Source of the DNA: Anadara kagoshimensis
Taxonomy: Eukaryota > Mollusca > Bivalvia > Arcoida > Arcidae
Assembly (NCBI GenBank): GCA_021292105.1
Contig: CM037861.1
Span: 33,944,172-34,008,171, forward strand
DNA: 64,000 bases
Direction of reading: 5' to 3'
Shown: one piece after another, positions 19,132-62,700 of the stretch
Layout: every line of letters begins with the position of its first letter
Numbering within the stretch: position 1 is the stretch's first letter
The notes under the pieces: generated by a model
Databases searched by the model: none
What the model saw: the letters and a program-made list of their open reading frames with translations, nothing else
Told to the model about the DNA's origin: nothing
Position numbers and translations under genes: made by a program

Positions 19132-19169
19132 CAGTACATGTATAATTTTTGTATATATGTAATTCTAGG

Positions 19170-32816: not shown

Positions 32817-33176
32817 TTCGAACCTAGGACCTCCCACTTTCAGTTGGTAGAGTGCTCGCTCCATAAGTAGGAGGTCGTGGGTTCGAACCCCAACCGGGTC
32901 TGACCCAAGACTTGAAAGTGGGTAGTGACTGTTCTTTCGCCAAGCACTCGGCATTACAAAATGAAAGTCACGGTTCTTTCAGATGGGAACTTAAAATAAA
33001 CGAGGTCCCGTGTCACGGTGGGCTTTGCACGCTAAAGAACCCTGCTGTATAATGCCATCAGCGCAACGCACAGGCAAAATTTCTGCACCTTCGCATATAG
33101 CTGGCGACGTCTCGATATAAGTGAAATAATCTTGACTAGGACGTTAAACACCATTACTCAACTCAACTCAACTCTT
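32817..33176 (+). mobile_element. tRNA-derived SINE (family 1), near full length
   Basis: The A-box-like AGTTGGTAGAGTGC and B-box GTGGGTTCGAACCCC lie about 40 nt apart. The SINE body includes AAGTGGGTAGTGACTG in altered form, and the tail is CATTACTCAACTCAACTCAA. About 85-90% similar by eye to the opposite-strand copy at 39553-39906. A mirrored piece of the head (GACCGGGTTCGAACC) precedes it at about 32810-32826, giving a palindromic 5' end. Confidence 0.85.
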
Positions 33177-33346
33177 CATGGTCCAAAAGTGTGTCATGAC
33201 CTTGAACCAAGTTCATATCAGAAAGGTCAAGGTCGCATGAAAACATTAAATGTTAGGGGTGGGAGTATTTGGCTCTCAAGAGGCAGTTCTAGTTTTATTG
33301 AGAAAAAATTAGCATATTTTGTAATGGAAATCGCCATACCCAAATA

Positions 33347-33821
33347 GTAAATTATCTCGAAAACTATAAACTTTTTGTATAGGCATGTATATTAAAATGT
33401 TGTAGGTATTGATACAACAATCATTTTGATGTATAGAAAAAGGTCATGGGTTCAAAGGTCAAGGTCACAGATGCGAAACAATACCGAAATGTTTATCTCT
33501 AAAACTATAAACTTTTTGTATAGGCATGTATATTAGAATGTTATAGGTATTGATACAACGATCATTTTGATGTATAGAAAAAGGTCATTGGTTCAAAGGT
33601 CAAGGTCACAGATGTGAAAAAATACTGAAATGGTTAATTATCTTGAAAACTATTAACTTTTTGTATAGGCATGTATATTAGAATGTTGTAGGTATTGATA
33701 CAACAGTCATTATGATGTAAAGAAAAAAGTCATTTGGGTTTCAGTATTTATGTTTTCTTTAAATCTATCAGCTAGCCATTAGTTATCAGGTGAGCGTATC
33801 AGGCCCATGGGCCTCTTGTTT
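33347..33821 (+). mobile_element. 5'-truncated copy of the 145-bp-array element
   Basis: It contains about three 145-bp units and the same right end (ATCAGGTGAGCG...GGGCCTCTTGTTT) as the copy at 26639-29258. The left part is absent. Confidence 0.8.
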
Positions 33822-39552: not shown

Positions 39553-39906
39553 GGCTTAGAGTTGAGTTGAGTAATGGTGTTTATTGTCCCAGTCAAGAAT
39601 ATTTCACTTATATCGAGACGTCGCCAGCTATAGACGACGGTGCAGAATTTTTGCCCATGTGTTGCGCTGATGGCATTATACAGCAGTATTCTTTAGCGTG
39701 CCAAACCCATCGTGGCACGGGACCTCGTTTATTTTAAGTTCCCATCCGAAAGAACCGTGACTTTCATTTCGTAATGCCGAGTGCTTGGCGACAGAACAGT
39801 CACTACCCACTTTCAAGTCTTGGGTCAGACACGGTAGGGGATCTAGCCGGTGACCTCTCGCTACCAGAGCGAGCACTCTACCAATTGAGTTACCGCAGTG
39901 GTTGTA
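39553..39906 (-). mobile_element. tRNA-derived SINE (family 1), near full length
   Basis: On the minus strand the A-box-like TAACTCAATTGGTAGAGTG is followed by a degenerate B-box (GGCTAGATCCCCT). The family body then ends at the CATTACTCAACTCAACTC tail near 39560. Opposite orientation to 32817-33176. Confidence 0.85.
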
Positions 39907-40055: not shown

Positions 40056-40128
40056 TGATGTCTGGCTTAGGTTTGCAGAGCACCTGTCTATGAGGAGTGT
40101 AAGATTCGACTCTTGGTCCAATCCAGAG
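40056..40128 (+). mobile_element. tRNA-like head abutting the 48-bp array
   Basis: An A-box-like TGGCTTAG (40063-40070) and B-box-like GATTCGACTC (40103-40112) lie 40 nt apart, with CACCTGTCTATGAGGAG between them as in a tRNA anticodon region. The B box passes directly into CTTGGTCCAATCCAGAG, the core of the 48-bp unit. It is a degenerate SINE head, not a functional tRNA gene. Confidence 0.5.
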
Positions 40129-43100
40129 TTCCGTTTTCTTCTAACATCGGTACTAGATCTTGGTCCAATCCAGAGTTCTCGCTTTCTTCTAACATTGACT
40201 CTAGATATTGGTCCAATACAGAGTTCTCGCTTTCTTCTAACATTGACTCTAGATAATGGTCCAATCCAGAGTTCTCGCTTTCTCTAAAATTGACTCTTTC
40301 CTCTCCAAAATTGACTCTAGATCTTGGTCCAATCCAGAGTTCTCGCTTTCTTCTAACATTGACTCTAGATCTTGGTCCAATCCAGAGTTCTCGCTTTCTT
40401 CTAACATTGACTCTAGATCTTGGTCCAATCCAGAGTTCTCGCTTTCTTCTAACATTGACTCTAGATCTTGGTCCAATCCAGAGTTCTCGCTTTCTTCTAA
40501 CATTGACTCTAGATCTTGGTCCAATCCAGAGTTCTCGCTTTCTTCTAACATTGACTCTATGTCTTGGTCCAATCCAGAGTTCTCGCTTTCTTCTAACATT
40601 GACTCTAGATCTTGGTCCAATCCAGAGTTCTCGCTTTCTTCTAACATTGACTCTATGTCTTGGTCCAATCCAGAGTTCTCGCTTTCTTCTAACATTGACT
40701 CTAGATCTTGGTCCAATCCAGAGTTCTCGCTTTCTTCTAACATTGACTCTATGTTTTGGTCCAATCCAGAGTTCTCGCTTTCTTCTAACATTGACTCTAG
40801 ATCTTGGTCCAATCCAGAGTTCTCGCTTTCTTCTAACATTGACTCTAGATCTTGGTCCAATCCAGAGTTCTCGCTTTCTTCTAACATTGACTCTAGATCT
40901 TGGTCCAATCCAGAGTTCTCGCTTTCCTCTAAAATTGACTCTAGATCTTGGTCCAATCCAGAGTTCTCGCTTTCTTCTAACATTGACTCTAGATCTTGGT
41001 CCAATCCAGAGTTCTCGCTTTCTTCTAACATTGACTCTATGTCTTGGTCAAATCCAGAGTTCTCGCTTTCTTCTAACATTGACTCTAGATCTTGGTCCAA
41101 TCCAGAGTTCTCGCTTTCTTCTAACATTGACTCTATGTCTTGGTCCAATCCAGAGTTCTCGCTTTCTTCTAACATTGACTCTATGTCTTGGTCCAATCCA
41201 GAGTTCTCGCTTTCTTCTAACATTGACTCTATGTCTTGGTCCAATCCAGAGTTCTCGCTTTCTTCTAACATTGACTCTATGTCTTGGTCAAATCCAGAGT
41301 TCTCGCTTTCTTCTAACATTGACTCTAGATCTTGGTCCAATCCAGAGTTCTCGCTTTCTTCTAACATTGACTCTATGTCTTGGTCCAATCCAGAGTTCTC
41401 GCTTTCTTCTAACATTGATTCTATGTCTTGGTCCAATCCAGAGTTCTCGCTTTCTTCTAATATTGACTCTATGTCTTGGTCCAATCCAGAGTTCTCGCTT
41501 TCTTCTAACATTGACTCTATGTTTTGGTCCAATCCAGAGTTCTCGCTTTCTTCTAACATTGACTCTAGATCTTGGTCCAATCCAGAGTTCTCGCTTTCTT
41601 CTAACATTGACTCTAGATCTTGGTCCAATCCAGAGTTCTCGCTTTCTTCTAACATTGACTCTAGATCTTGGTCCAATCCAGAGTTCTCGCTTTCCTCTAA
41701 AATTGACTCTAGATCTTGGTCCAATCCAGAGTTCTCGCTTTCTTCTAACATTGACTCTAGATCTTGGTCCAATCCAGAGTTCTCGCTTTCTTCTAACATT
41801 GACTCTATGTCTTGGTCAAATCCAGAGTTCTCGCTTTCTTCTAACATTGACTCTAGATCTTGGTCCAATCCAGAGTTCTCGCTTTCTTCTAACATTGACT
41901 CTAGATCTTGGTCCAATCCAGAGTTCTCGCTTTCCTCTAAAATTGACTCTAGATCTTGGTCCAATCCAGAGTTCTCGCTTTCTTCTAACATTGACTCTAT
42001 GTTTTGGTCCAATCCAGAGTTCTCGCTTTCTTCTAACATTGACTCTATGTCTTGGTCCAATACAGAGTTCTCGCTTTCCTCTAAAATTGACTCTAGATCT
42101 TGGTCCAATCCAGAGTTCTCGCTTTCTTCTAACATTGACTCTATGTTTTGGTCCAATCCAGAGTTCTCGCTTTCTTCTAACATTGACTCTATGTCTTGGT
42201 CCAATACAGAGTTCTCGCTTTCTTCTAACATTGACTCTAGATATTGGTCCAATCCAGAGTTCTCGCTTTCTTCTAACATTGACTCTATGTTTTGGTCCAA
42301 TCCAGAGTTCTCGCTTTCTTCTAACATTGACTCTATGTCTTGGTCCAATACAGAGTTCTCGCTTTCCTCTAAAATTGACTCTAGATCTTGGTCCAATACA
42401 GAGTTCTCGCTTTCTTCTAACATTGACTCTATGTTTTGGTCCAATCCAGAGTTCTCGCTTTCTTCTAACATTGACTCTATGTCTTGGTCCAATACAGAGT
42501 TCTCGCTTTCTTCTAACATTGACTCTAGATCTTGGTCCAATCCAGAGTTCTCGCTTTCTTCTAACATTGACTCTAGATCTTGGTCCAATCCAGAGTTCTC
42601 GCTTTCTTCTAACATTGACTCTAGATCTTGGTCCAATCCAGAGTTCTCGCTTTCTTCTAACATTGACTCTATGTCTTGGTCCAATCCAGAGTTCTCGCTT
42701 TCTTCTAACATTGACTCTAGATCTTGGTCCAATCCAGAGTTCTCGCTTTCTTCTAACATTGACTCTATGTCTTGGTCCAATCCAGAGTTCTCGCTTTCTT
42801 CTAACATTGACTCTAGATCTTGGTCCAATCCAGAGTTCTCGCTTTCTTCTAACATTGACTCTATGTTTTGGTCCAATCCAGAGTTCTCGCTTTCTTCTAA
42901 CATTGACTCTAGATCTGGTCCAATCCAGAGTTCTCGCTTTCTTCTAACATTGACTCTAGATCTTGGTCCAATACAGAGTTCTCGCTTTCTTCTAACATTG
43001 ACTCTAGATAATGGTCCAATCCAGAGTTCTCGCTTTCTTCTAACATTGACTCTATGTTTTGGTCCAATACAGAGTTCTCGCTTTCTTCTAACATTGACTC

Positions 43101-46100
43101 TATGTCTTGGTCCAATACAGAGTTCTCGCTTTCTTCTAACATTGACTCTAGATATTGGTCCAATCCAGAGTTCTCGCTTTCTTCTAACATTGACTCTATG
43201 TTTTGGTCCAATACAGAGTTCTCGCTTTCCTCTAAAATTGACTCTAGATCTTGGTCCAATCCAGAGTTCTCGCTTTCTTCTAACATTGACTCTAGATCTT
43301 GGTCCAATCCAGAGTTCTCGCTTTCTTCTAACATTGACTCTATGTCTTGGTCCAATACAGAGTTCTCGCTTTCTTCTAACATTGACTCTAGATATTGGTC
43401 CAATACAGAGTTCTCGCTTTCTTCTAACATTGACTCTAGATATTGGTCCAATCCAGAGTTCTGCTTTCTTCTAACATTGACTCTATGTTTTGGTCCAATC
43501 AGAGTTCTCGCTTTCTTCTAACATTGACTCTATGTCTTGGTCCAATACAGAGTTCTCGCTTTCCTCTAAAATTGACTCTAGATCTTGGTCCAATACAGAG
43601 TTCTCGCTTTCTTCTAACATTGACTCTTGTTTGGTCCAATCCAGAGTTCTCGCTTTCCTTTCTAACATTGACTCTATGTCTTGGTCCAATACAGAGTTCT
43701 CGCTTTCTTCTAAAATTGACTCTAGATTTGGTCCAATCCAGAGTTCTCGCTTTCTTCTAACATTGACTCTATGTTTTGGTCCAATCCAGAGTTCTCGCTT
43801 TCTTCTAACATTGACTCTATGTCTTGGTCCAATACAGAGTTCTCGCTTTCTTCTAACATTGACTCTAGATTTGGTCCAATCCAGAGTTCTCGCTTTCTTC
43901 TAACATTGACTCTATGTTTGGTCCAATCCAGAGTCTCGCTTTCTCTAACATTGACTCTATGTCTTGGTCCAATACAGAGTTCTCGCTTTCCTCTAAAATT
44001 GACTCTAGATCTTGGTCCAATACAGAGTTCTCGCTTTCTTCTAACATTGACTCTAGATATTGGTCCAATCCAGAGTTCTCGCTTTCTTCTAACATTGACT
44101 CTATGTTTTGGTCCAATACAGAGTTCTCGCTTTCTTCTAACATTGACTCTATGTCTTGGTCCAATACAGAGTTCTCGCTTTCTTCTAACATTGACTCTAG
44201 ATATTGGTCCAATCCAGAGTTCTCGCTTTCTTCTAACATTGACTCTATGTTTTGGTCCAATACAGAGTTCTCGCTTTCTTCTAACATTGACTCTATGTCT
44301 TGGTCCAATACAGAGTTCTCGCTTTCTTCTAACATTGACTCTAGATATTGGTCCAATCCAGAGTTCTCGCTTTTCTTCTAACATTGACTCTATGTTTTGG
44401 TCCAATCCAGAGTCTCGCTTTCTTCTAACATTGACTCTATGTCTTGGTCCAATCAGAGTCTCGCTTTCTTCTAACATTGACTCTAGTATTTGGTCCAATC
44501 CAGAGTTCTCGCTTTCTTCTAACATTGACTCTATGTTTTGGTCCAATCCAGAGTTCCGCTTTCTTCTAACATGACTCTATGTCTTGGTCCAATACAGAGT
44601 TCTCGCTTTCCTCTAAAATTGACTCTAGATCTTGGTCCAATACAGAGTTCTCGCTTTCTTCTAACATTGGACTCTATGTTTTGGTCCAATCCAGAGTTCT
44701 CGCTTGCTTCTAACATTGACTCTATGTCTTGGTCCAATACAGAGTTCTCGCTTTCTCTAAATTGACTCTAGATTTGGTCCAATCCAGAGTTCTCGCTTTC
44801 TTCTAACATTGACTCTATGTTTTGGTCCAATCCAGAGTTCTCTCTTCTTCTAACATTGACTCTATGTCTTGGTCCAATAGAGTTCGCGCTTTCTTCTAAC
44901 TTGACTCTATATTTGGTCCAATCCAGAGTTCTCGCTTTCTTCTAACATTGACTCTATGTTTGGTCCAATCCAGAGTTCTCGCTTTCTTCTAACATTGACT
45001 CTATGTCTTGGTCCAATACAGAGTTCTCGCTTCTTCTAACATTGACTCTAATCTTGGTCCAATACAGAGTTCTCGCTTTCTTCTAACATTGACTCTAGAT
45101 TTGGTCCAATCAGAGTTCTCGCTTTCTTCTAACATTGACTCTATGTTGGTCCAATACAGAGTTCTCGCTTTCTTCTAACATTGACTCTATGTCTTGGTCC
45201 AATACAGAGTTCTCGCTTTCTTCTAACATTGACTCTAGTTTGGTCCAATCAGAGTTCTCGCTTTCTTCTAACATTGACTCTATGTTTTGGTCCAATACAG
45301 AGTTCTCGCTTTCTTCTAACATTGACTCTATGTCTTGGTCCAATCAGAGTTCTCGCTTTCTTCTAACATTGACTCTAGATTTTGGTCCAATCCAGAGTTC
45401 TCGCTTTCTTCTAACATTGACTCTATGTTTGGTCCAATCCAGAGTTCTCGCTTTCTTCTAACATTGACTCTATGTCTTGGTCCAATACAGAGTTCTCGCT
45501 TTCTTCTAATTGACTCTAGATCTTGGTCCAATCCAGAGTTCTCGCTTTCTTCTAACATTGATCTATGTTTTGGTCCAATCCAGAGTTCTCGCTTTCTTCT
45601 AACATTGACTCTATGTCTTGGTCCAATACAGAGTTCTCGCTTTCCTTCTAACATTGACTCTAGATCTTGGTCCAATCCAGAGTTCTCGCTTTCTCTAACA
45701 TTGACTCTATGTTGGTCCAATCAGAGTTCTCGCTTTCTTCTAACATTGACTCTAGTCTTGGTCCAATCAGAGTTCTCGCTTTCTTCTAACATTGACTCTA
45801 GATATTGGTCCAATCCAGAGTTCTCGCTTTCTCTAACATTGACTCTAAATCTTGGTCCAATCCAGAGTTCTCGCTTTCTTCTAACATTGACTCTAGATCT
45901 TGGTCCAATCCAGAGTTCTCGCTTTCTTCTAACATTGACTCTAGATCTTGGTCCAATCCAGAGTTCTCGCTTTCTTCTAACATTGACTCTAGATATTGTC
46001 CAATCCAGAGTTCTCGCTTTCTTCTAACATTGACTCTAGATCTTGGTCCAATCCAGAGTTCTCGCTTTCTTCTAACATTGACTCTAGATCTTGGTCCAAT

Positions 46101-47058
46101 CCAGAGTTCTCGCTTTCTTCTAACATTGACTCTAGTCTTGTCCAATCCAGAGTTCTCGCTTTCTTCTAACATTGACTCTAGATCTTGGTCCAATCCAGAG
46201 TTCTCGCTTTCTTCTAACATTGACTCTATGTCTTGGTCCAATCCAGAGTTCTCGCTTTCTTCTAACATTGACTCTAGATCTTGGTCCAATCCAGAGTTCT
46301 CGCTTTCTTCTAACATTGACTCTAGATCTTGGTCCAATCCAGAGTTCTCGCTTTCTTCTAACATTGACTCTAGATCTTGGTCCAATCCAGAGTTCTCGCT
46401 TTCTTCTAACATTGACTCTAGATCTTGGTCCAATCCAGAGTTCTCGCTTCTTCTAACATTGACTCTAGATCTTGGTCCAATCCAGAGTTCTCGCTTTCTT
46501 CTAACATTGACTCTAGATCTTGTCCAATCCAGAGTTCTCGCTTTCTTCTAACATTGACTCTAGTCTTGGTCCAATCCAGAGTTCTCGCTTTCTTCTAACA
46601 TTGACTCTAGATCTTGGTCCATCCAGAGTTCTCGCTTTCTTCTAACATTGACTCTATGTCTTGGTCCAATCCAGAGTTCTCGCTTTCTTCTAACATTGAC
46701 TCTAGATCTTGGTCCAATCCAGAGTTCTCGCGCTTCTTCTAACATTGACTCTAGATCTTGGTCCAATCCAGAGTTCTCGCTTTCTCTAACATTGACTCTA
46801 GTCTTGGTCCAATCCAGAGTTCTCGCTTTTCTTCTAACATTGACTCTAGATCTTGGTCCAATCCAGAGTTCTCGCTTTCTTCTATTGACTCTAGATATTG
46901 GTCCAATCCGAGTTCTCGCTTCCTCTAAAATTGACTCTAAATCTTGGTCCAATCCAGAGTTCTCGCTTTCTCTAACATTGACTCTATATCTTGGTCCAAT
47001 CCAGAGTTCTCGCTTTCCTCTAAATCTTGGTCCAATCCAGAGTTCTCGTTTTCCTTTT
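40118..47058. repeat. Giant 48-bp minisatellite, about 145 units
   Basis: The unit core is CTTGGTCCAATCCAGAGTTC, followed by TCGCTTTCTTCTAACATTGA and CTCTAGAT. Variation concentrates at three places: AGATCT/AGATAT/ATGTCT/ATGTTT, ATCCAG/ATACAG, and TTCTAACATT/CCTCTAAAATT. Because 48 is 16 codons and the unit lacks stops in four frames, very long frames open by chance: 40256-43474 (+, 1072 aa), 40290-42947 (+, 885 aa) and 42903-40249 (-, 884 aa). Their repeats are IDSRSWSNPEFSLSSN, a hydrophobic TLDLGPIQSSRFLL type, and MLEESENSGLDQDLES. From about 43450 onward many 1-3 nt indels break every frame. I find no splice sites, promoter, non-repeat domain or codon signature, so I call it a satellite. 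Confidence 0.97.
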
Positions 47059-48015
47059 TTATTGAACGAAATATTCAACAACAACGGTAGTACTGAAGAC
47101 TTTTTTTCAGTTTATGTAAAATTTTTGAAGAATAACTTTTCACAAAAATGTTCAAAATTGATTTATTCTGATTTTTAACTCTTCAGTTTCGGTCGAAAAA
47201 AAATTATTGGAGGATACAAATGGAAGTCTTTCCCAAAAATCAGCAGGTACTAATTTTGATTACTTCATTCAAAACACACAGCTTAAATTGTTCTGTGCTA
47301 TTTTTTTTTAAATAAAAAACCATGACACATGTAACGGATTCGCGTGAATCAGTTGTAAATAAACCGCCAAAACCGAAAGAAGAAAGTCAGACATAAAGAA
47401 AAATTCACCGGATTATAGGATTAGGCAAACTTATAACAGTTATTTAAACTTTCTAAATACACAAAAAATTTTAACATGATGTTTATACGGTTGACCAAAT
47501 TTAAATCCCATGCAGTGTTTGTCTGTTAAAAAGAAACATTTTGATATAATACACTTCCTTGATAAACACACTTTATATAACAGATAGCCGTGATCATTGG
47601 GTGAGAATGAATCACAATTGACTGGGTATATTGTTATTAAAAGCTGTCTATATATATGGGGTATATATATAAACGTAAAGCCGACCTAAACATTGTGAAC
47701 CATTAAACCTACCATACCGTGAAGAAATACTACCTTTTCAATATACATTGGATTTTCTGTTGTTCCTCTCTACCGCTTAACGTTAAATAAGCAGCACGGG
47801 TGTGGTCAATGTTAATTTTCGGATAAATTGGATAATTTCGAGGATTATTCCACAAAAAAGCAAAACATCTACCTATCTACACCTTTATTCCTGATATATT
47901 CATCGGATCTATATTCAGTTATTATAGTTATGATGGTGTATTAGTGCTAAAACAAACCAAGGTCTCAGATTCCAGAGAAGGAGTGGAGTTAAAAAATTTA
48001 AAGATCACCTGTAAA
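47059..48015 (+). promoter_or_regulatory. Upstream region of the lectin gene
   Basis: Mostly AT-rich single-copy sequence. A TATATATAAA word lies near 47664-47673, about 345 nt before the start codon, and could be a TATA box with a long leader. No other motif stands out. Confidence 0.3.
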
Positions 48016-51000
48016 ATGGATGGATATGGGACACTTTGTATCTTGTTCGTGTTTCTGCTCTCCAGCTCGTCAATATTAGCGGTAAGATCGATATATCTCT
48101 TCAGTTGAGTAGCCATGTTTTTATTATGTTAATTAACATGTTTAAATACACCTGTTAATGAATTGATTACATTATGTACAACTATTTGCATATTTTCACG
48201 TTCAGACACAAGTGCAATTCAATATTCTAGACATGTGACAATCCAAAGTACCAGAAGCAAATTACATAGTACCTGTTCATGTCAGATGGTACCCAGTTCG
48301 ACAACAACAATCTAGTATTAATCTTATTTCCTGGATCGATTTGTTAGTTACACGTGAATAGTAGCACATTTTTAAAACCGTAACCTGAAATAAATTACCC
48401 GTGTATAGAACATGAAATAAATTACCCATACACATCCGCATACTGACCTAAAATTGATTAACCGTGTGTATATAAACGACAAAATTGGCAACAATTTCAT
48501 GATACACGTTGAACTACATGTACTTGATTGAATCAGAAAATTGTTTAAAAATTTTCTTTGATATTTTTAAACCACTAAAATGAATGTATTAATAATTTAC
48601 AATTATTGATCAAAAATGTAAACATGTTATTTTGTTTAGGACAAAAGTTACATAAACTTATCGGTATTATGTACCGCACCTAAAAAGTTAATGAATAATT
48701 ACTTTTCATGACAATAAAAAAACTAGTAAAACGACTTGTATAAAAAAAGGTAAAATATTACAATCCTTAATAAAGTAAGATTTTATAATTAATGTCAATG
48801 TTTGACATGTTGATGACAGTTATGTTAAACTGTGAAATGTTGTTGTACGTGCACTACGCTACCATCACCCTCGGAGAAAATATGTCTCTCCTAACAGCTT
48901 TGTCAGACATGTTTATAGTCTTATGCATGTATTAATGTAAACTTTTGATGGATTATTTAAATATTTCAAGACAATGGTTGTAAAACCAATCCCTCATGCG
49001 TGAAGTTCAGTACTTTTCACGGTAACCAATTTATAAGGGCGATGCCCACTTCCTGTGTCTAAGTTTCTACTTAAGAGTTTTCAATCGATGAATGGCATTT
49101 TTTCACACTGAAGAAAAATGTTAAATCAAACACCAGTCAAAGAGAATCCCTCAACTGGAAATCTTTTGTGTCTTAAAGTTATGTGTTACATTTTTTTCTT
49201 GCACGTCTATGTATATTAGCCAGTTAATATTATACCGTTTGTGGGGAGGTCGGGTTTCGAACCCCCTGTCGGGTCTGAACAAGACTTGAAAATAGGAAGT
49301 GGCTGCTCTTTTGCCAAGCACTTGGCTTTTGGAAATGAAAGTCACGGGGTCCTCCGTAAGAGACTGTAATACCCGTGACACGTTATGGAACCCTCCCTGC
49401 ACATTCAGCAATGCAAATTGTCTACCACTTCGTTTATAGCTGACGACATCTCGATATAAGTAAAATGTATCTTGACTGGGTGTGTATCACTTTTATTTGT
49501 AATAACATGTGCAGAATTTTGAACTTTTTCTGTAAAAGATATATTTGTTTCCAAAATTCTGCTCATGACAATTGCAGAATCTGCTCATGACAATTGCAGA
49601 AATCTTGAATATTGCTTTTGACCAAAACTTGAAAATAGGTTGTGACTGTTTTTCCCCAAACACTCGCCATTACGGGATCTTTCGGAAGAGACATGAAAAT
49701 TGATGCCCCGTATCACGACAGGTGTGGCAAGTTAAAGAACCCCAAGAACACAACCGAAGATCGCTTCAACATAATTCCAATTCTACCAACACTTCCTACA
49801 CCGAGCCTTTGAGAAAAGTATTTTCAGACGATAAAATTCACGCCGGTTATTGTTTTTCCAAAATCTACACTTTAACCAAAATATCATCAGATCTGCTATC
49901 TGAATATTAACCTTGGGCGGAGGAAACCGGAGTGCATGAAAAAAGCTACCTAACTAACTTTGGCAAATAAACTACATCTACTGGATTGGAAACTGTACAG
50001 CGGCGTCTTATGCTCAAGATAAAAGACCAGGGGATGATAAAATTTCCCTTCAATTAATAAACTTAACACATTCATTGAGACATTTTATTAATATGCCAGG
50101 CAGAATTTTCTGAAGTAGCTTCAAGTGTTGAAACGAAATTCTCATTTTGACTATATAAAATCTAATAATTTGATAAGGTAGAATCTGGACTTGCTTGGTT
50201 GAATTTCATTTCACAACATTTATTTACGTGTTATCATTTCAATTGAAAATTTGGGCTAGGCATGTTCATGATGAAATTCAAAAGTCAAGTCACGATTTTG
50301 ATGTGAATCATTAGGCCTTTATTGGAAGCTAGTAGGTACATTTTGAAAACAGGGGAGTTTTCTTTCAACCTTTAGAAAACAGCGTGATTTTAACAAAATA
50401 GTTAACAGGCGTTTCTTAAAATTGATACTTATGGGCGTGTCACTGAAGTATGTCTCTTAATTATGAAGTTACCATCGTAATTTATTCAGATCCGTAATAT
50501 TAAAAGTAAACATTGGTTTCTCGTCTCTTCTTAGTCAACCATAAATATGTTTGAGTTTTAAATATTTTTCGACGCAAAACTATTTTAAATCAATATTATT
50601 AAAATGACTTAAAAATGAAATACTCTGTTGTTATTTAGCTGTGCCAGTTCATTTTTTTACTGGTGGAATATATGTAGCGAAAATATATCCAACTGGATAA
50701 AAAATACAGTACAAAATTAAACGAACTTACACATCGGAAAGACGTCGGATTTAATTTAAAATGCAAATAAACACGAAATCGTATCATATCTAAAACAATA
50801 TGCGTTTTGAAAAATTATATAGATCTACTAGTAGAGGGTTTAAATATCGTGGTAGGAAAGATTCTTAGTTGAATTAAGGTTCCGAATAACTGAACGTCTG
50901 AACTCTTGTGTCACCATTGATTTTGAAAAGGATGTTATTTAGTCATATGAGCTATTATAATGGCGATTTACGGTATACACAGCACTAGTGAGACCATATT

Positions 51001-54000
51001 CCGGGGATTTTATGTTCCTTTGCCCTAGAATAGGATATTTTAAATATGAAAACTATCAAAACTATAAATGATATTAAAAATGAATCCTCATGACCTCTTC
51101 TCATATATATTTGACATTTGATAGTTTTTAATAAATTTTGATATCGCCCCCAGATAAAATACACGTGTTAGATTTCGGAACACATGCGCGTAGCGATATA
51201 GGCATTACTTAAATCACGGGTTATATAAAGACGAAGTTTCCATGGTGATAATGTCACAAGTTAAGCGTCATTGTAAAATTCCAGATTTAGCAAGAGGCTC
51301 ATTAATTCATTTCCAATTGGTAAGTTTTTATATTTATAGTCCCATATTCTAGGATAAAGAAACATTAAATCACCGGAATATGGTCTCTATATCGCATACC
51401 GTAATCGGATGGTCAAAATGGTGTCAACATCGCTGTGGACGGTCATACGACTCTTGAAAGATTTTTTGAGTGGATTTATATTTCGTTTGTGTATTTGGTA
51501 ATGTGTTTGGTATCACACCGTGCCATATCATACCCCTTCTAAAAATATTAAAATTGTGGTGCCGGGAAGGGCAGTAATTTATTCGACTTTCTGTGTGATA
51601 GAAATCTTAATTTGATGGTAGTCCTGGAGGTGTCTTACCACTTAAACACCATTTTAACATTCCACTTTTCCCACTTATTAAATAAACATTCAAGATTTCA
51701 CCGCCTTACAGACCCTTTCTCAGCCTTTGACTTTTTCCTGGTATTTTAATATTTGTTTTATATATTATAGTACTATTGAATCAGTTATGTGATTTGTGTG
51801 CAGACCATAACTACAATAGCGTGATTGTGAAAGTGTGATTGCAATATTGTAGACATATTAACAGCATGATTACCGCAGACACTTATTTGTAACAAAAATG
51901 ATTTGTCCCATATCCTTATTGTTGTATTAGGAGATAGAGCAAGGTATTTTGGTTTACAAACAAATGCCTGTTGTTGATTAGTAGAACAGCCAAATTGTCT
52001 ATAAGGACCACCCAAGGGAACCAGAAAAAGTGGCCTTAATGGGCAGGTGACACTGATATACAGGTTCAAATAATGAACAAAAAGCAATTGGGTTGAAATT
52101 TTACAGACCTTTAAAAGGAGGTGACCCTTATATAGAGGTTGATTTTCAGGTGGGTTTTGACTGTAGTTGGAATCTTGATGTGCATATTGTAACTTTTTGA
52201 CAAGTTGAGCACCTCTACAGAAAACTTTGAAATAGACATTCTTGGACTCAAAAAGTACAAATGATAGATGGTGCAAGAGTAAAGGTTGGCATTCCTTCAT
52301 TTCTGCCAAGTGTTAAAACAAAACTTTGAAAGAAAAAATTATTTTATAAATACACTTTTGCTATTGGCAATAAACATTGACCTGTATGGTTGACCTTTGA
52401 TTTAAATCATGCATTTAAATGTATAAGAAAACAAAAGAGTATATTTCATCTTCATCTACATCATGGCAACCAATGCTGATTTCAGAGTTAGCAACTTAGC
52501 ACATGTATTGTGCATGTATTACATATGAATCCTAACACTACCCATGTATTGGTGTATTCACCTATATGAATATTCCATGAAAGGTCAAACAGACAGGTCA
52601 ATGTTTGCTGATATTCATGTATTGGTGGATTCTCCTATATGAATATTCCCCATGAAAGGTCAAACAGACAGGTCAATGTTGTTTGCTGATTCCCATGCAT
52701 TGGTGGATTCTCCAATATGAATATTCCCCATGAAAGGCCAAACAGACAGGTCAATTTTGTTTGCTGATACTCATGTATGAGTGAATTCTCCCAAATGAAA
52801 GGTCAAACAGACAGGTCAATGTTGTTTGTATTGGTGGATTCTCCAATATGAATATTCCCAAATGAAAGGTCAAACAGACAGGCCAATGTTGTTTGCTGAT
52901 ACCCATGTATTGTTGGATTCTCCAATTTAAATACTCCCAATGAAAGGTCAAACAGACAGGTCAATGTTGTTTGTATTGCCGAATTCTCCTATAGGAATAG
53001 TCCCAATGAAAGGTCAAACAGACAGGTCAATGTTGTTTGTATTGGTGGATTCTTCTATATGAATAGTTCCAATGAAAGTTCAAACAGACAGGTCAATGTT
53101 GTTTGTATTGGTGGATTCTCCAATATGAATATTCCCAAATGAAAGGTCAAACAGACAGGCCAATGTTGTTTGCTGATACCCATGTATTGTTGGATTCTCC
53201 AATTTAAATACTCCCAATGAAAGGTCAAACAGACAGGTCAATGTTGTTTGTATTGCCGAATTCTCCTATAGGAATAGTCCCAATGAAAGGTCAAACAGAC
53301 AGGTCAATGTTGTTTGTATTGGTGGATTCTTCTATATGAATAGTTCCAATGAAAGTTCAAACAGACAGGTCAATGTTGTTTGCCAATATGTATACCTGTA
53401 TAATATTGTGTAACCAAGCATGATTTATAGGTTTTATGGTACAAAGTACTATAATGTGTGTATGAATTTTAATAAGACCTTTAATACATAAAATATTTAG
53501 TAATTTTATAATTCATAACCTTGTTACAGTTATGATTGATGGATGTATACAAATGTCATACTCCATTTATCTTCTGAATATGTTAACAAGTTGAAGAAAG
53601 TTATTTTAATATTTTAAATTAATCATTTCATGTTTATTTTTCATTCTGATTATAAGAAAATGTGAAAAAGATATTCAAAGTTTTCAATTAATATTTGTTA
53701 TGGTGACAGGTTTTTAAAACTTAATTTGAATTTTATAACTATAAAGTAGTTAGTTTCAGTCATGAACTATTATTTCACTAATGTTTTTCAATTTGTTAGA
53801 CATTTAAAAAAATAAATAAAAAGCAACAAAAACAAAAGTAGAAAAAGCTGAAAGAACATACTATTTATTGTATTTGTTATATAGTTTTGTGGGGCTAAAA
53901 TTTTGTGGTTTTGTAATTTAAAAAAAAACCAGATGGTATGGAGAAAATTTTGAGAATTGTGTTTTTTGAAAATAAATCTAATTAAGGGTCTTGCCAGTTG

Positions 54001-54592
54001 GTAATTATAATTTTGATTGACAATAAAGTATGTGGTATTGACTAATCCACAAAAACAAAGAAATTCAATCCCCCATAAATATTTGATTTCCTTTGGGAAC
54101 TTTGGTTTCCTCCACAGTATATTATTTTTTTGATATATTTATGTGATAATCTTACTTATTTCAATCATGATTTGAGGTTCATTTAAGTTTACTGTATATA
54201 CCTCATTATTTAAGTTTGAAGGATAAATCATTAATTGATGGACATTGACCTTCATCCAAAGTCATAATGGCATTGCATGTGTGACCCTAAAATGGTCTTG
54301 ATAGCAACAGAAAAGCTTCAAAACAAATTATCTGACTGCTGACCCCTTGACCTATTCAATACTAATACACTGTCTACAAATATTGTCATATTCAATGTCA
54401 TACTTTCTACAAGTATTGCCCTATTTGATATCATACTTTCTACAATTATTGCCCTATTTGATATTATCAAGTATTGCCCTATTTGATATCATACATTCTA
54501 CTACTATTGCCCTATTTAATATGATCCTGTCTACTACATGTAATATTGCCCTATTCAATGCAATGCTATCAACTGGGATTTATTTATTTATT

Positions 54593-54635
<43 letters not shown>

Positions 54636-57600
54636 TTATTTATTGTTGCTTAAATATTGCATTTTATATTGAACTTATTTCTTTTTCTTTTGTAGCAAAG
54701 GTCCATTCCTTACACCTGTCCATCAGGTAAGTTAAAATTGTTACTAGTATTTTACAAGTGCTTACATTTAACCTTTTTATTGTATTTTATCAAAGTTTCC
54801 CAAAAAGTTAAGATGTCGCTTCCTGTAGGTTTGAATCCCACATTAGCAGATAATAATCCGCTAGTGAGGAAAGATTATAAGTTTACTTGAAGATGGTCAG
54901 TGGTTTTTATCAGCATTAAGGTTTCTTAAAACTTTAAAGAACTGACTGCCTTGATTTAAGCAAATGAATCTTGACTGGGATGTAAATTAACTTTATCTCA
55001 GCTTTAAGATGGGCTTTACCCAACTTCAGCTACTATAGTGCTTATAAACATCCAAAGACAGATTAAAAACTATGTGTATATATTACAAATTTCCTTGCAT
55101 AAAACCCACACTTTTAAAACAAAAATTAAAAAAATATATATATGAGAAGCGGTTGCAGGTTAAAAGTGGTAGTGTGAATGCTGCGTACACAAAAAATAAA
55201 AATTGGAGAAGGGGTTGCAGGTTAAAAGGGGTAGTGTAAATGCTCTGTACACAAAAATTAAAAAATTGAAGAAAGGGGTGCAGGTTAAAAGTGGTAGTGT
55301 GAATGCACTGTACATAAAAAATTTAAAAAATGGAGAAAGGGGGTGCAGGTTGAAAGAGGTAGTGTGAATGCTCCGTACACAAAAATAAAGATCGGAGAAA
55401 GGGTTGCAGGTTAAAAGGGGTAGCATGAATGCTCCATACTTCGTTAAAAGGGTTAAAAACTTTACAAACTACAGTAAGACCTGTATATAAAGACCACCTA
55501 CAAATACCTATAAGTTACAGGTTAATAACATGTTCATCCTGTTACACCTGTAAACATGTGGTATGGTCTATAAATCAAAATAACTGGATCATACCACTGA
55601 CAACCAAGGGATGAAAGGACTATACAAGTCTCACTGTGTCATGTGATAACATTTGAGATATTCTATATGTTATGTGCCCTTCCCCCCCTCAGAAAACTGT
55701 TTCAGGTTTCAGGTGGAGTGTTGAATTCCACTAAAATTTAAATATAGTTGGATTCAGACTTTTAAAATACATTGAACTTTACCTAGATTGTTGAACTTTG
55801 AGGTGTTATACTTATGGGGTTCAGTGTCAGATTACTATTCTGTTACATATATACATTAAATATGTTACCTTTATGCAGGTAGATGACTATATTATTATAT
55901 AAAACTAACTGCATGGCAGTAACACCGCTTTTAAAAATAAATGTTCTAAAATGTCAGTGCAGGAAAAACATCTGATACCAAAGATTAAGTTCTATTTTCT
56001 CAGGGTATAACATGGTGGAACAATTTACCTGGGTTGACTGGTTTAGATTACAGGTGATTTACACACCCAGGGCCATTATACCCATTTTTGGTATTGGGTT
56101 TCAGTGGTACTGTAGTATGATTCAGTTATTTTGGTTTATAGACCATAACACATGTTTAAAGGTGTAACAGGATGAACATGTTATTAACCTGTAATTTATA
56201 GCACAGATAGGTGGTCTTAATATACAGGTCTTACTGTAGCTTGTAAAGTTTTTAACCATTTTAATGAAGTATGGAGCATCCACACTACCTCAACGCGAGA
56301 TGCGAGATCTTAAAAACTAATGCCCCATGTCATGGTAGGTGTGTCATGCTACAGAACCCTCCATGCACATTATCTGAACACGCTGCAAAGGTAAAATGTC
56401 TGTTGCTTTACCTATAGCTGGTGACATCCTGATATAAGTACAATATTCTTGATCATTTTGTAAGAGAGGATTTATGTGATCTTAATTAAGCACTTAGATG
56501 AAAACTTTGCAACTTGTGTGTCAAAAGTGGTTCATAAGCTCTCTTTATAAATAGGAATAGTTTAATTAAATACAGGTAGTTTAAAATGTTTTTATTCTCT
56601 GACATATGGAACTGGTATGGTCATCAAAATCATTTGTATTGTGAATGGAAAATATGTTGCTCATATTTTTATACCATATGTAACAATAAATTGCCTACTG
56701 ACTGACCACCTGTTGGTTTGGTAGGTGGGTGTATAGTAGATGGTCAATAGGAGCAACTACTCATCAAACACACACAGTCCTACCCACCCACCCTCCATCT
56801 TACTTTGTGATCAATCTACCAATCAACATGCTAATGTAATTGCTTGGTGTTTTAAAAGAAGACAATCTTATCAATGTGGAATCATTAATTTTTGTGGTGT
56901 TTCCAATTTTATGTAATTTGTAGTTTTGTTTTTTTGTTTTTTTTTTTTTTGTGTTGGCACCTCGATCTGGGATTTACATGTCAACGAAATTATTAATTTT
57001 TGTGGTGTTCCAATTTTTTTTCTTGCACTGGCACCTTGATCTATGATTTCCATGTTAAAAAAATAGTATGTATTATAAACTTCCTCAAATCAGTAACCAC
57101 AAAATCACAATTTTATCACACAATGGAAAACAGTATTTTTTTCTGAAAATCACAAAAATAAGTGATGTCGTTTAGAGATATATTATAGCGGAGCTAACTA
57201 ATTTTTGTTGTCAGGCAAGTAATTTAAGACACCACACTTGCCCCTGGACAAGTAAAACATAATGTGCAATCATTTTTATCAGTCACAATAATTTCCAGTT
57301 TCAAATGTAAACATTCAGTCTTTCATAGGGTAGGGTAGGTAATTTTTGTAGAAGGACAAGTGAATTAACTGATCCAAACTGTCAAGTGTCTGAAAAATCA
57401 ATTTGTCTACCCCTGTATATTGTGTTTTTCAGATTGGGAAAGGATTGGAGTATCATGTGTACGTGCATTTGGTACAAATGCCAACAAAGTGCAGACATGG
57501 GAGATGGCACAAATTATGTGTAAAGGGTAAGCATAGATATTAACAGCCCTTTGGCTTTGTCAGCTATTTTAATATACAGAGTAGATCAGAACAACTGTTT

Positions 57601-60600
57601 TATACCCCAGGCAAGATTCTTTTAATTACAGTCAAACCTGTCTATTAAGGCCACCCAAGGGAACCAGTAAAAGTGGCCTTTATGGACAGGTGCCCTTTAT
57701 ATACAGGTTCAAATAATATGAATAAAGAACAATTGGGATACAATTGTACTGGCCTTTATAAGCAGGTGACCCTTACATAGAGGTGGCCTTTAAGGCAAGT
57801 TGGACTGTATATTAAGGTGATCAATTCTTTATGGTGGAGGAAACCAGAGTGCCCAGAGAAAACCACTGGTTTTTGGCTAGCAAATTGACAAACTTACTTA
57901 TACTAGGATTGACCAAGAGTGGGATTTGAACCTAGAGGTTCCGTGATCCATGAACATGTGCTTTAGACCACTAGTTCACTGGTTCTGGGGTTCTGATTTC
58001 CTCAGGTTAGCAATTTAAAACCCATGAGCTTTTTATTCATATGCTATGGGACTTGGACCAATTTTGGAATGTGGGACTAAGACTTTTATATATTTTATGA
58101 TTTTGTATTTTATATTTTAACAGGAATGGCGGTTATCTGGCCAAAATTGACGATCACTTGACCAATTATGAACTAGGAGAGTATGCCAGAAGTAAAGGGG
58201 CTCAGATGTTTTGGATAGGTAAGTCATTTTATATACCATTATCTAAAGGTTAAGGTGTATATGATAGGTGGTGTTATGGGCCTTTTTAGGGATACATGTT
58301 GTGTCATTGTTGTGGTCCTTATTGGGGATACCTGTACTAGTGTTTAGGTCATTGTTGACCCATGTTATAGAAAGGTTCATGTGATAAATGATGTCATCAA
58401 TAGCAATGTTCTTTGACTGAAGGGTTGTGGTTTTCTATGGGCACTTTGGTTTCCTGTACATTGGTAAACTGACTACCTTAATGTAAGTGAAAGAATCAAG
58501 ACTGGGGTGCAAAACTCCATTACTTCACTTCCCTGTGGTTATTGCCAACAGGTCTATATCATTAAAATTTGACTGAACAAATGGTGGCAATGAATGGAGG
58601 TTTTTCTTTAAGTACTGCTGTCTTATGTTATACATGCACTGCCTTCATTGCATACAGGGTCCTCACTTTCTTAGTAGCCTGAAGCGTGCATTACAGATCA
58701 CACACAGTGCCTCTCATCACCTAAGTTTAAATCCAATTTGGAACTAATGTGAGAAAGTTTGCTTTCTAAAGGTAGGTGGTTTACTCTGGGCACTCTGGAT
58801 TCCTCCAGCATCTTAGAATTGACTGCCTTGATATAAGAGAAAGAATCTTGACTGTGGCATAAAACAACATTACTTCACTCCATTCAATTCAGATTGATTA
58901 ACTCTTATTTTACAGACAATAAATATTTGATTGTAAAATATTTACAGTATGACTGTATCTCTCTTTGATGAAACACGCAGAAGCAATTGTATTGCAATTC
59001 CCGTTAAAAGACAATAGGGGTCATGACCCTTGATGTGTATGAAATTTCCCACAAGATGACAACATGTCCCCCACAGGATGACATTATATGTGATTGTCTT
59101 TTGATTATGACTGTCACTAAAGGTTTAAATAATAGTCATGTGAGAAATGTCGATCTCGCATGGCAAAAAACCCTATCTCACATGAGCAGGTATGGAAAAA
59201 ATAGTGCCAAGAGTTGAAACAAATATTTACAAAATATTTATTGAAAGAAAGAATTATAAATATAAGAAATGATGTTTCTCTCATTGTATTTCAAGAGGTA
59301 ATGCAAGATAGTATGGCGTGTGCCAAATTCACATGCCACACTTTCTTGCATTACCTCTTGAAATACCATGATCAGAATGTCATTTCTTAAATGGTAATCT
59401 TTTTCAGGGATGAACAGAAAAGAAGTATCAAAGTCTGATACAGAGAAAGTAGAATGGGGAAATGATATGGACGGTACAGTGTATGAGGGCAAATGGAATA
59501 ATAAGAGTCCAGATGTTCAAAATGGAGATTGTGTGTATGTCAAATATATGATGGAACATGGTTATGTGATGCAGTTTGAAAAATGCAAATCAAAAATGGC
59601 TTATATTTGTCAACGGCCATCTTGTCCATCTGGTAAGTCTTGAAATCAATTTACAGGGTGGTAAGCATTCCTGTTTTTTCCTATTTTATTGAAAATTGCT
59701 ATATTTTGAGAAAAAAGTTTCTATTTTCAGTAATTTTACAATATGTTTACAATATTCCGAATAGGTGTTAAGATTCTTTGATCTGAAATTACAAGTTTTT
59801 AAGTATCTGAAACATCAAAACCTAATAGGTTATTACATGTATATACCATGTTTTTGTTAAATAAAGGGAGATAATTCTTGCAAATCAAGGGACTCTATTG
59901 CTTAACCTTTGAAACTGATTTATTTTCCTTATTCAAAAAGTATCGCTAAATTTTTTTTTATATCTTGTTAAGCCCACTTGACCCAATTAATTAAATGTTT
60001 GTGATATTATTCAAGTGTCGGTATACAAAGTGCATTCATTCATTCATAATTTATTTCCTCTTAAATAGAGATTTTTACATATAGAATTTCATATAATAAC
60101 TACATGTGCTTAATTAAACAATAAACAGAACATGGTGCATAATTTTTTCGATCCAAAAGACAGAATGAAGTTTTTCTGTAACAAGGTAACAATATCATGG
60201 GACTATGTACTTATATTACAGGGAGTTTTTTCTGTCACAATGGTAACTGTCTCAGTTCCAATCTCATGTGTGATAATTATGATGATTGTGGAGATTATTC
60301 AGATGAGACAAACTGTGGTAAGTATAATGTAATGTTCACTTTCATTTTCTAAACAGATTTAAACAGTATTAATATTAATAAAAATAATAATACAGTAAAA
60401 CCTCGTTATAATGCCCCTCGATAACTTTGCCACCTCGCTTATCGCCACACTATTTTGAAGTCCCAAAATCCATTTTGTTTATGTTTTTCATTATGAGCCT
60501 CTCTCAATTTATCACCAAACCCCTTTATAATGCCAAAATTTGACTGAACAAATGGTGGCGATGAATCAAGGTTTTACTGTATATAATTATTGACATTTGA

Positions 60601-62631
60601 TGAGGTAGACATAAGGATTTATCAACCTCAAAAATGTGATATTTAACAAGACCGCATTGGATTTTGAAGGTTTTGGCAAGAGAATCACGAAAGTTAATAT
60701 CTGCAAATAAAAGCTGGTTTACAGTATTCATTAACTGAGTTTTTGGTATGACTGAAGTTTAGTGCATGGCAAAGTTTATGGTGCAATCTAATCAGTCATG
60801 TCTATATAATATAATATTGAAGTTAATGGTCTTGGGTCATAGGAACGAGTGCCAAATTGGCCTTGGGTCATAGAAAGGAGTGCCCAATTGGGCTTGGGTC
60901 ATAGGAACGAGTGCCAAATTAGCCTTGGGTCATAGGAACGAGTGCCAAATTGGCATTGGGTAATAGGAATGAGTGCCAAATTGGCCTTGGGTCATAAGAA
61001 CGAGTGCCAAATTGGCCTTGGGTCATAGGAACAAGTGCCAAATTGGCCTTGGGTCATAGGAATGAGTGCCAAACTGGCCTTGGGTCATAGGAATGAGTGC
61101 CAAACTGGCCTTTGGTCAAAGGGACAGTGTGTTAAATTGGAGACCGCTAATGTGTTGTTGTTGATTATTTTATATATAGAACCTAACTGTAGACGTAAGA
61201 TTCAGATGACATCTGGTACAATATCATCACCTTCATCTGGTGGCAATGGGTTCTATGACAGCTCAAAAGTGTGTGTTTGGACCATTATCGGACCAGAAGG
61301 ATCCAATGTTTTCATTAATGTAAGTGATGACATTTTTAATACTGTAAAGGTATTTGATTTAGCGTGTATTTATTTTCGCTTTATGTGAAATTTAGAATTA
61401 TCCTCGAGGTTAAATTTTCACCTTTTTGAAATATGTTTAATAAGACAATCAGCATAATATAATTTTCGCTTGGTATTTAATTTTGTGCAAAGCAAACGAC
61501 CGCAAACCAAGCAAACATTAGTACACCTCAAAAATAAATATGTTTATAGTACTGAATAAAGAGAAACATTAACGGTAGGAAACTTTCGTAGTTTTGATCT
61601 TCTAAGCTATTTCATGATAAGAAACTTTCACAATTCCTACTGTAGGGAAAGTGTATCAAGGGATGATATATACATATTATATACACAGTGTGTATGTACA
61701 ACACTCAGTATCAGGTCGAGTCCTTTTTTCGTAGCCGTATCACTACGAGTCGCGCTTGCGCGACGAGTAGTGATACAGCCACGAAAAAAAGACGAGATCT
61801 GATACGAAGGGTTGTACATACACACTGTGTATATAATATTTTTATCTAACATTTCCAATAAGGTTATTTAAAATAATGAAAAAACAATACTTTATGTGAA
61901 AAAATTACATTTTACCACAGAAAACCACTGAACTATGTTATGACCGACAAATCCAAGACTCCCTGATGACGTAACAATGAGAAAGTGCACGCGCGCTTTA
62001 CCGCCAATGTTGTATCACCACAGTGTGGTGATACAAGATTCTGTATCACATGTGTTCGATAAAACTTGTATTTCGTCAAATCAGATAGAAAAACTAGTCT
62101 AATGTTAGATAAATTCACAGTACAAGAGTCACTGCTCTAATGCCACTCAATAACGTTTGCTACCTGGCTTATTGCCACAGTATTTTGTCCCGAAATCCAT
62201 TTCTCTATTATTTTTTTATTATTATATATTTTTTTGATATGGTTGCCTTGATTTATGAAAAACTCCTTTATAACACTAAATCTTGACTGAACAAATGAAT
62301 CATGTTTTTACTGTACTATGGTTGGGATATTTTGTGATGCTTAGTGAGGTTGTAGTTGCTTAATTTAGGTATTGCAGTGGATTTAATAACTTTATATAAT
62401 TGTTTTGTAACAATTTACAGTTTACAAGGTTTAATACAGAATACCGCAGAGATATGGTCAATATTTTAGTTGGTGGTGAAACAGAGTCCACTTCTATATC
62501 CATAGCTCAGTTATCAGGACAGCCAGATTTAAACACTCTACGTTTCAGAAGCTATAACAATTTTATGATTGTGACATTTTCAACAGATTCAGCGGTTACA
62601 AAGCCTGGATTTAGTGCCAATTTCCAAAGTT
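48016..62631 (+). CDS. Secreted C-type lectin - LDLa - CUB protein, 3' end beyond window
   Basis: Exons are 48016-48081, 54696-54726, 57433-57526, 58124-58218, 59408-59632, 60222-60317, 61180-61319 and 62421-62631. All are GT/AG with matching phases (0,1,2,1,1,1,0,1), giving 319 residues in view. Residues 1-22 are a signal peptide ([16 protein letters not shown]). Residues about 30-167 are a C-type lectin domain ([54 protein letters not shown]). The usual EPN/QPD sugar-site triplet is replaced by KSP and no WND is seen, so Ca-dependent sugar binding is doubtful. Residues about 168-203 form an LDL-receptor class A module with six cysteines and [12 protein letters not shown]. Residues about 206-319 are a CUB domain ([30 protein letters not shown]). 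Exon 8 ends at a GTAAGT donor, so more exons follow. Likely an extracellular or surface recognition protein; orthology unknown. Confidence 0.92.
49232..49492 (+). mobile_element. tRNA-derived SINE (family 1), diverged
   Basis: B-box-like GTCGGGTTTCGAACCCC is followed by the family body (ACAAGACTTGAAAATAGGAA, GAAAGTCACGG, CATCTCGATATAAGTAAA). The A-box region is lost. In lectin intron 1. Confidence 0.75.
49618..49990 (+). mobile_element. SINE fragments in lectin intron 1
   Basis: 49618-49745 repeats the middle of family 1 (CTTGAAAATAGGTTGTGACT to AAAGAACCCC). 49912-49985 resembles the 'ggaggaaaccggagtg' part of family 2. Confidence 0.5.
50963..51408. mobile_element. Non-autonomous transposon with about 75-bp inverted ends
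   Basis: The left arm (about 50963-51040, GAGACCATATTCCGGGGATT) is mirrored by the right arm (about 51330-51408, CACCGGAATATGGTCTCTAT), including CCCTAGAATA / TATTCTAGGATA and the outer CGGTAT / ATACCG. The interior is AT-rich and non-coding. Confidence 0.75.
51975..52168. mobile_element. MITE family C copy in lectin intron 1
   Basis: Opposite orientation to 10372-10546; contains ACCACCCAAGGGAACCAG and ends GGGTTTTGACTGTA. The left terminus is worn. Confidence 0.65.
52520..53395. repeat. Tandem array with 70-85-bp units
   Basis: GGTCAAACAGACAGGTCAAT followed by GTTGTTTG recurs about 11 times, with 'ggattctccaatatgaatattccc' spacers of two length classes, with or without 'ctgatacccatgtatt'. 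A segment of about 240 bp is itself duplicated (52830-53090 and 53110-53370). Confidence 0.85.
53396..54340. other. AT-rich intron sequence, nothing recognised
   Basis: Part of lectin intron 1; no gene or strong repeat. Confidence 0.45.
54344..54645. repeat. Degenerate minisatellite of about 35 bp followed by (TTTA)n
   Basis: TATTGCCCTATTTGATATCA with 'tactttctacaa' repeats about six times to 54565. (TTTA)n runs at 54579-54645, ending 50 nt before lectin exon 2. Confidence 0.8.
54815..54990 (+). mobile_element. SINE-like fragment (family 2)
   Basis: A tRNA-like GTAGGTTTGAATCCCAC (B-box) begins it and GACTGCCTTGATTTAAGCAA with 'aatcttgactggg' ends it. Confidence 0.6.
55145..55440. repeat. 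Five-unit tandem array of about 62 bp
   Basis: GGTTGCAGGTTAAAAG...GGTAGTGTGAATGCTCCGTA recurs at about 55151, 55213, 55275, 55338 and 55401. The last unit forms the outer end of the inverted repeat at 55418-56288. Confidence 0.85.
55418..56288. mobile_element. Large inverted repeat, 175-bp arms
   Basis: The left arm 55418-55595 and right arm about 56112-56288 match as reverse complements at about 90% by eye, from GAATGCTCCATACTTC through ACAGTAAGACCTGTATA to TAACTGGATCATAC. The spacer of about 515 bp is non-coding. Inner TACAGTAAGACCTG ends look like MITE termini. In lectin intron 2. Confidence 0.8.
56290..56455 (+). mobile_element. SINE family 1 3' half
   Basis: From CGAGATCTTAAAAACTAATG to the 'agctggtgacatcctgatataagta' end. 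It directly abuts the right arm of the inverted repeat. Confidence 0.6.
57628..57812. mobile_element. MITE family C copy in lectin intron 3
   Basis: Well preserved: starts ACAGTCAAACCTGTCTATTA, ends GGCAAGTTGGACTGTA, with GGGAACCAGTAAAAGTGGCC inside. Confidence 0.78.
57815..57990 (-). mobile_element. SINE-like element (family 2)
   Basis: The reverse complement has a tRNA-like head with B-box GGTTCAAATCCCACTC, then 'gaaaaccactgg' and the 'ctctggtttcctcc' body. Confidence 0.65.
58670..58890 (+). mobile_element. SINE-like element (family 2) in lectin intron 4
   Basis: GTGAGAAAGTTTGC, GGTTTACTCTGGGCACTCTG and GACTGCCTTGATATAAGAGA follow a worn tRNA-like head. A tail piece of MITE D (TTTGACTGAACAAATGGTGG) lies just upstream at 58566-58605. 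Confidence 0.65.
59263..59389. repeat. 127-nt hairpin just before lectin exon 5
   Basis: Arms of about 60 nt: TAAGAAATGA at the left base pairs with TCATTTCTTA at the right. A perfect 22-nt stem lies at 59287-59308 and 59344-59365 (TATTTCAAGAGGTAATGCAA). The inner stem is imperfect with a small loop near 59326. It ends 18 nt before the exon. Confidence 0.8.
60391..60581. mobile_element. MITE family D copy
   Basis: Ends TACAGTAAAACC / GGTTTTACTGTA. About 90% similar by eye to 24906-25094. In lectin intron 6. Confidence 0.82.
60828..61125. repeat. 31-bp minisatellite upstream of the CUB exon
   Basis: About nine units of CTTGGGTCATAGGAACGAGT + GCCAAATTGGC. The array ends about 55 nt before the exon at 61180. 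Confidence 0.9.
61674..61839. repeat. Long, nearly perfect palindrome with CpG-rich centre
   Basis: Arms of about 80 bp read ATATTATATACACAGTGTGT ... GTATCACTAC and mirror each other with few mismatches. The centre is TCGCGCTTGCGCGA. A 27-bp relative (TTGTATCACCACAGTG...) at 62009-62035 is also self-complementary. In the intron that splits the CUB domain. Confidence 0.88.
62116..62315. mobile_element. MITE family D copy, decayed
   Basis: Shares TAATGCCACTCAATAAC, GCTTATTGCCACA, TTTATAACAC and TTGACTGAACAAATGAATCA with family D in order. The left end is worn. Confidence 0.6.
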
Positions 62632-62700
62632 GTAAGTAGAAATCATCAGTTTAGACAGCAGACAAGTTTATAAAGGATAATGGTTTAAAAGAATGTTTAT

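Follow-up and report, generated by a model that had tools for sequence, protein, structure and literature searches.

A 48-bp minisatellite array present at two places on one contig of the Anadara kagoshimensis assembly, probably as two alleles

The window analyzed here is a stretch of 64 000 nucleotides (C5:33944172-34008171). Genome-wide searches were run on the assembly from which it was taken (1.115 Gb in 36 contigs); they score the best candidates, and the repeat counts reported below are lower bounds. The feature under study is a tandem array of a 48-bp unit (Table 1). Wrap-around alignment to the 48-base consensus placed the array at positions 40111-47053 (6943 bases, 144.6 units), which agrees with the approximately 145 units at 40118-47058 proposed in an earlier note made from the sequence alone. 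Tandem Repeats Finder reported period 48 and 141 copies for the slightly shorter region 40310-47023. The alignment comprises 147 rows including partial units. A length of exactly 48 bases is seen in 99 of the 144 nearly full units, and 37 are identical to the consensus. The array itself is far beyond chance. Six unit positions (10, 11, 13, 24, 41 and 47, counted from zero) vary commonly, and not three, as had been claimed. In a large part of the array the units additionally follow a three-unit higher-order pattern, with a lag-3 similarity of 0.78 (z = 6.3 compared to shuffled unit order). The first and the last units are more diverged or truncated than those of the interior, as is usual in arrays homogenized from within.

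Table 1. Coordinates of the array, its parts and the features downstream of it (window positions).
Feature	Position	Strand	Remarks
48-bp minisatellite array	40111..47053	.	144.6 units, consensus ATTGACTCTAGATCTTGGTCCAATCCAGAGTTCTCGCTTTCTTCTAAC on the + strand; alignment, Tandem Repeats Finder
Left part of the array, 54 units	40310..42901	.	Zero indels relative to consensus
Higher-order pattern, three units (144 bp)	41990..45840 (approximate)	.	Similarity peaks at lags of 3, 6 and 9 units and, further out, 13, 16, 19 and 22
Right part of the array, 73 units	43429..46883	.	57 bases deleted and 8 inserted; deletions clustered at variable unit positions
Probable first coding exon (secreted or membrane protein)	48016..48081	+	Direct reading: hydrophobic 22-codon stretch from the ATG at 48016, followed by a GTAAGA donor
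LDL-receptor class A domain	60224..60316	+	Pfam PF00057, E 2.7e-06
CUB domain	62412..62624	+	Pfam PF00431, E 8.6e-09

To the right of the array, direct reading of the + strand points to a signal-peptide-like, probable first exon of a probable LDLa/CUB gene (Table 1). Domain scans covered the three + frames of positions 48017-63000, one frame of the 9.8 kb past the window end and four open reading frames (ORFs). In addition to the two domains listed in Table 1, they detected a CUB and a Sushi domain past the window end, in the one frame scanned there. We infer that the exon, the LDLa and CUB domains and the domains beyond the window probably belong to one gene. Farther to the left, at 19149-19850 on the + strand, a 233-codon ORF encodes a SAM domain (PF00536, E 9.5e-16). 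A search of the window for RNA genes yielded neither a tRNA nor an Rfam match above the gathering threshold.

The window is also rich in other repeats. A dispersed repeat of approximately 330-346 bases is present at 32840-33169 and 39558-39903 (on opposite strands), the latter copy being just left of the array, and again at L009 1161-1506 and 8514-8843. The window and left-copy members of this repeat are 89-93% identical; by eye it is partly tRNA-like, although no tRNA was called. Just right of the array, 47113-47244 is a dispersed repeat with 76-82% identity elsewhere (38 of the 40 matches listed). Copies of a high-copy dispersed element at 4786-5413 occur across many contigs, mostly at 84-87% identity, and an inverted copy is often located about 1 kb from them. 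Several places of the region (27187-29166, 33336-33734, 63733-64000, L029 754-2090 and L012 1-1400) share a related tandem repeat of approximately 145 bp. A check of the array edges for a mobile element, with each flank searched alone, revealed three imperfect inverted-repeat pairs.

The unit of the array is confined to very few places in the genome. A two-unit query produced at least 71 matches, all of them either in the window array or at C5:33604592-33605156. When a 22-base unit core was searched with a tolerance of three mismatches, at least 146 forward matches were obtained, and all the places listed are at these two loci. The search returned zero reverse matches, and the reversed control likewise gave zero. 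The second array (C5:33604556-33605197) consists of 13.4 units and is located about 386 kb to the left of the window array. The flank junctions are the same at both arrays, and the mean pairwise difference between units is 4.5% in the window array versus 7.5% in the left copy. Contamination was rejected as a source of the array, the 22-base unit core being without an exact match in either the bacterial and archaeal or the viral contig collections.

Taken by these properties, the array looks like an ordinary non-coding single-locus minisatellite. Its tandem units of 48 bp (144.6 of them) fall within the range of roughly 10-100 bp, and the matches listed are confined to two places on contig C5. 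As in minisatellites or VNTRs, units of tens of bases are arranged head to tail at one locus, the end units are diverged or truncated, the interior is more uniform, and the two copies contain very different numbers of units. The comparison differs in one respect, as the allelic status of the two copies is here derived from the assembly and not from variation among individuals. The array resembles satellite DNA in being long, uniform and tandem with a short higher-order pattern. However, among the matches listed it occurs only at one locus and its duplicate, and not in high copy number at several places. On these matches a dispersed satellite is rejected, and the suggestion of the earlier note that the array might be an unusual satellite gives way to a minisatellite at a single locus. 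The array would grow or shrink in unit steps through unequal exchange or replication slippage, the general mechanism of minisatellites.

Long open frames run through the array on both strands. The unit is indeed open in two plus and two minus frames (+0, +1, -0 and -1), as had been pointed out. Such openness is unremarkable because, when the bases of the unit are shuffled, at least four of the six frames are open in 13% of cases (20,000 shuffles). Stop-to-stop open length in the array reaches 1073 codons on each strand. The frames previously described, of more than 1000 codons on one strand and 884 on the other, both exist (from the ATG, 1072 codons on the + strand and 884 on the - strand), but the longer one is a chimera. 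Where one base is missing from the unit at 42902, this ORF passes from the IDSRSWSNPEFSLSSN frame into the LTLDLGPIQSSRFLLT frame, and it survives only because this next frame is open as well. The array of the left copy also has one + frame that is stop-free over all 13.4 units (228 codons stop to stop), again because of a frame switch of the same kind.

Could the array nevertheless be an exon of a young repeat protein, built of 16-residue units encoded on one strand? The period is divisible by three, open frames extend to 1072 codons, and the true frame could be even longer should the deletions toward the right end of the array prove to be artefacts (see below). Variation among units speaks against this possibility. 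For the coding test we used the variants present in at least three of 65 clean units (n = 7; positions 10 and 11 were treated as one variant and the two changes at position 13 as separate). The residue is altered by five of the seven variants in frame +0, six in +1, seven in -0 and six in -1, and none of the open frames displays a synonymous excess (7 variants, 65 clean units). Moreover, the +0 frame of the unit contains a stop in two units (40242 and 42997), one unit of the left copy has suffered a 14-base deletion, the four open frames are within chance, and the next + strand exon (48016) resembles the start of a separate gene.

Comparison with known families and structures did not yield a convincing relative. 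One of the three array ORFs scanned against Pfam had no family at all. For the other two, the sole family with its own matched stretch was Fibrinogen_BP (E 0.81); TonB_2 and Autoind_synth pass the Pfam whole-protein cut-offs without a matched stretch of their own, and we read their scores as sums over repeats. For the 1072-codon frame, a PDB comparison of its first 384 codons gave no matching chain at E 0.01. A repeat protein would be recognized by a single frame kept throughout and an excess of synonymous changes. Neither was observed, and frame-breaking changes are found in both copies, those of the window possibly being artefacts. On the basis of the residue-changing variants and the lack of convincing Pfam or PDB relatives, we reject a protein-coding array and consider a repeat-protein exon highly improbable; the non-coding reading, toward which the earlier note leaned, is supported. 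The long open frames would simply result from a period divisible by three in combination with a unit in which four frames happen to lack stops.

The two arrays reside within two copies of a much larger region. The left copy spans about C5:33364685-33796652 (432 kb) and the right copy extends from 33797672 to about 34179898 (382 kb). They are separated by exactly 1000 N (C5:33796672-33797671); a run of N in this data set can also mark withheld sequence. Homology extends up to the gap, as the left match ends 19 bases before the N run and the right match starts at the first base after it. The sequence at the start of the right copy corresponds in the left copy to a tandem repeat (period 122 bases), in which a contig would be likely to break off. 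Around the arrays, ordered matching blocks stretch from window position 17444 to 5.3 kb past the window end and are interrupted by unmatched stretches of up to several kb in either copy. The leftmost 2.9 kb of the left-copy stretch compared had no match of at least 250 bases to the window-side sequence. In the whole-genome search, nine of ten flank or spot queries had a colinear counterpart on C5. The remaining spot query is full of dispersed repeats, and no counterpart was found among the 40 of 6654 candidates scored. Gene counts around C5:33796672-33797671 may be doubled, the two copies of approximately 400 kb being colinear.

Substitution divergence between the copies is 3.5% (range 1.1-8.9%), as estimated from 20 blocks that are on the same strand and measure 800 bases or more (about 36 kb in total, partly overlapping). 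The divergence is uneven, since one 2.5-kb piece is 99.6% identical. However, most of this piece is a dispersed element whose other genomic copies are 94-98% identical, and therefore it lends weaker support to a haplotype origin of the copies. Unit number differs about tenfold between the two copies (13.4 versus 144.6).

Colinear, diverged copies that meet at an N gap resemble haplotypes left in tandem. The arrays therefore probably represent two alleles of a single minisatellite rather than products of a true duplication. In its treatment of false duplications, PMC9516828 ('Widespread false gene gains caused by duplication errors in genome assemblies') characterizes them by a gap between the two members on one scaffold, by read depth reduced to half, by linked reads that are discordant and by k-mers present as single copies. 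Our region resembles the false heterotype duplications described there in having two diverged colinear copies on one scaffold with an assembly gap between them. Of these marks, the present comparison covers the gap, which is there, with 1000 N reached by homology from both sides.

The two copies could instead represent a true tandem segmental duplication of approximately 400 kb, after which the minisatellite either grew about tenfold in one of the paralogues or lost units in the other. Such an origin would be in line with flanks and exons in the same order in both copies, with several-kb unmatched stretches on either side and with the average divergence of 3.5%, which fits an older event. The near-identical piece, being largely a dispersed element, need not mean haplotypes. 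The left copy of the signal-peptide-like exon (C5:33606183 on) carries one extra T and has lost its frame, as might be seen in a decaying paralogue; the extra T may equally be a sequencing error or belong to a broken allele. Against this origin speaks the boundary between the copies, which coincides on both sides with the 1000-base gap. An assembler could have broken a true duplication at its junction, but a divergence of 3.5% alone should not stop a long-read assembler there. We therefore regard a true duplication as unlikely and prefer the two-haplotype origin. Two haplotype contigs would have been scaffolded in tandem with their overlap kept, so that the region is held twice. One haplotype would carry 13.4 units and that of the window about 145.

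The right part of the window array differs from the left part in its indels (Table 1). We set the boundaries of both parts after inspecting the array. Indel density relative to the consensus is about 19 per kb in the right part; outside the array, 103 one-base gaps in approximately 36 kb separate the two copies (about 3 per kb). For a test of where the deletions fall, we took the variant positions (7 of 48) from the 65 units at 40310-43428, which contain a single deletion. In the right 73 units, 36 of 57 deletions are at these positions compared to 8.3 expected (P = 7e-17). If each position and background is counted only once, the corresponding numbers are 27 of 48 and 7 expected (P = 2e-11). 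Of the 67 deletions in all 144 nearly full units, the six variant positions account for 40, the 19 homopolymer positions for 20 and the 23 others for 7. Plain read error thus contributes, because 20 of the 67 deletions occur in homopolymers at non-variant positions.

The concentration at variant positions makes a consensus-calling artefact the probable source of the deletions in the right part, since merging of reads out of register would drop just the bases that differ between units. We know of no mutational process that would do so. As the pattern suggests, reads in different repeat register would be merged and bases dropped where units differ, which would break the frames. Some of the recurrent deletions may still be true variants spread together with the higher-order repeat. 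The concern expressed earlier that the array might be an assembly artefact thus applies in a different form. The assembly does contain the array, but the duplicated state of the neighborhood and some of the array's base sequence look like assembly products.

The location of the array raises the question of a regulatory role. It lies upstream of the probable LDLa/CUB gene, ending about 960 bases before the probable start codon (ATG 48016), and is present in both copies. It could act as a promoter-proximal VNTR that modulates this gene through a putative protein-binding site in each unit. Such a role would be compatible with the minisatellite explanation and would add a function to it. However, position alone is a weak argument, and single-strand DNA folds of two units are modest (z = -1.35 on the + strand, equalled or bettered by 22 of 200 shuffles; z = -2.25 on the - strand, by 6 of 200). 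The same folds led us to reject a hairpin function. A hairpin sketched by eye would allow pairing between unit positions 10 and 24, and these two positions show an association across units (Fisher P = 2e-5). We did not rely on this association because the units are related through the higher-order repeat and so are not independent. Overall, we consider a regulatory VNTR improbable, and even somewhat more doubtful is a role in which two alleles of one individual, with about 13 and about 145 units, would control an LDLa/CUB gene (secreted or membrane product) according to their length.

The explanation that we find likely as a whole thus combines a minisatellite, haplotype copies scaffolded in tandem and an unreliable right part of the larger array. 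The array illustrates that a period divisible by three can give rise to kilobase-long open frames on both strands without coding. The gathering of deletions at variable unit positions provides a simple warning of an unreliable consensus in a long array. Finally, a repeat and its neighboring gene can appear twice in a chromosome-scale assembly, here probably because both haplotypes were kept.
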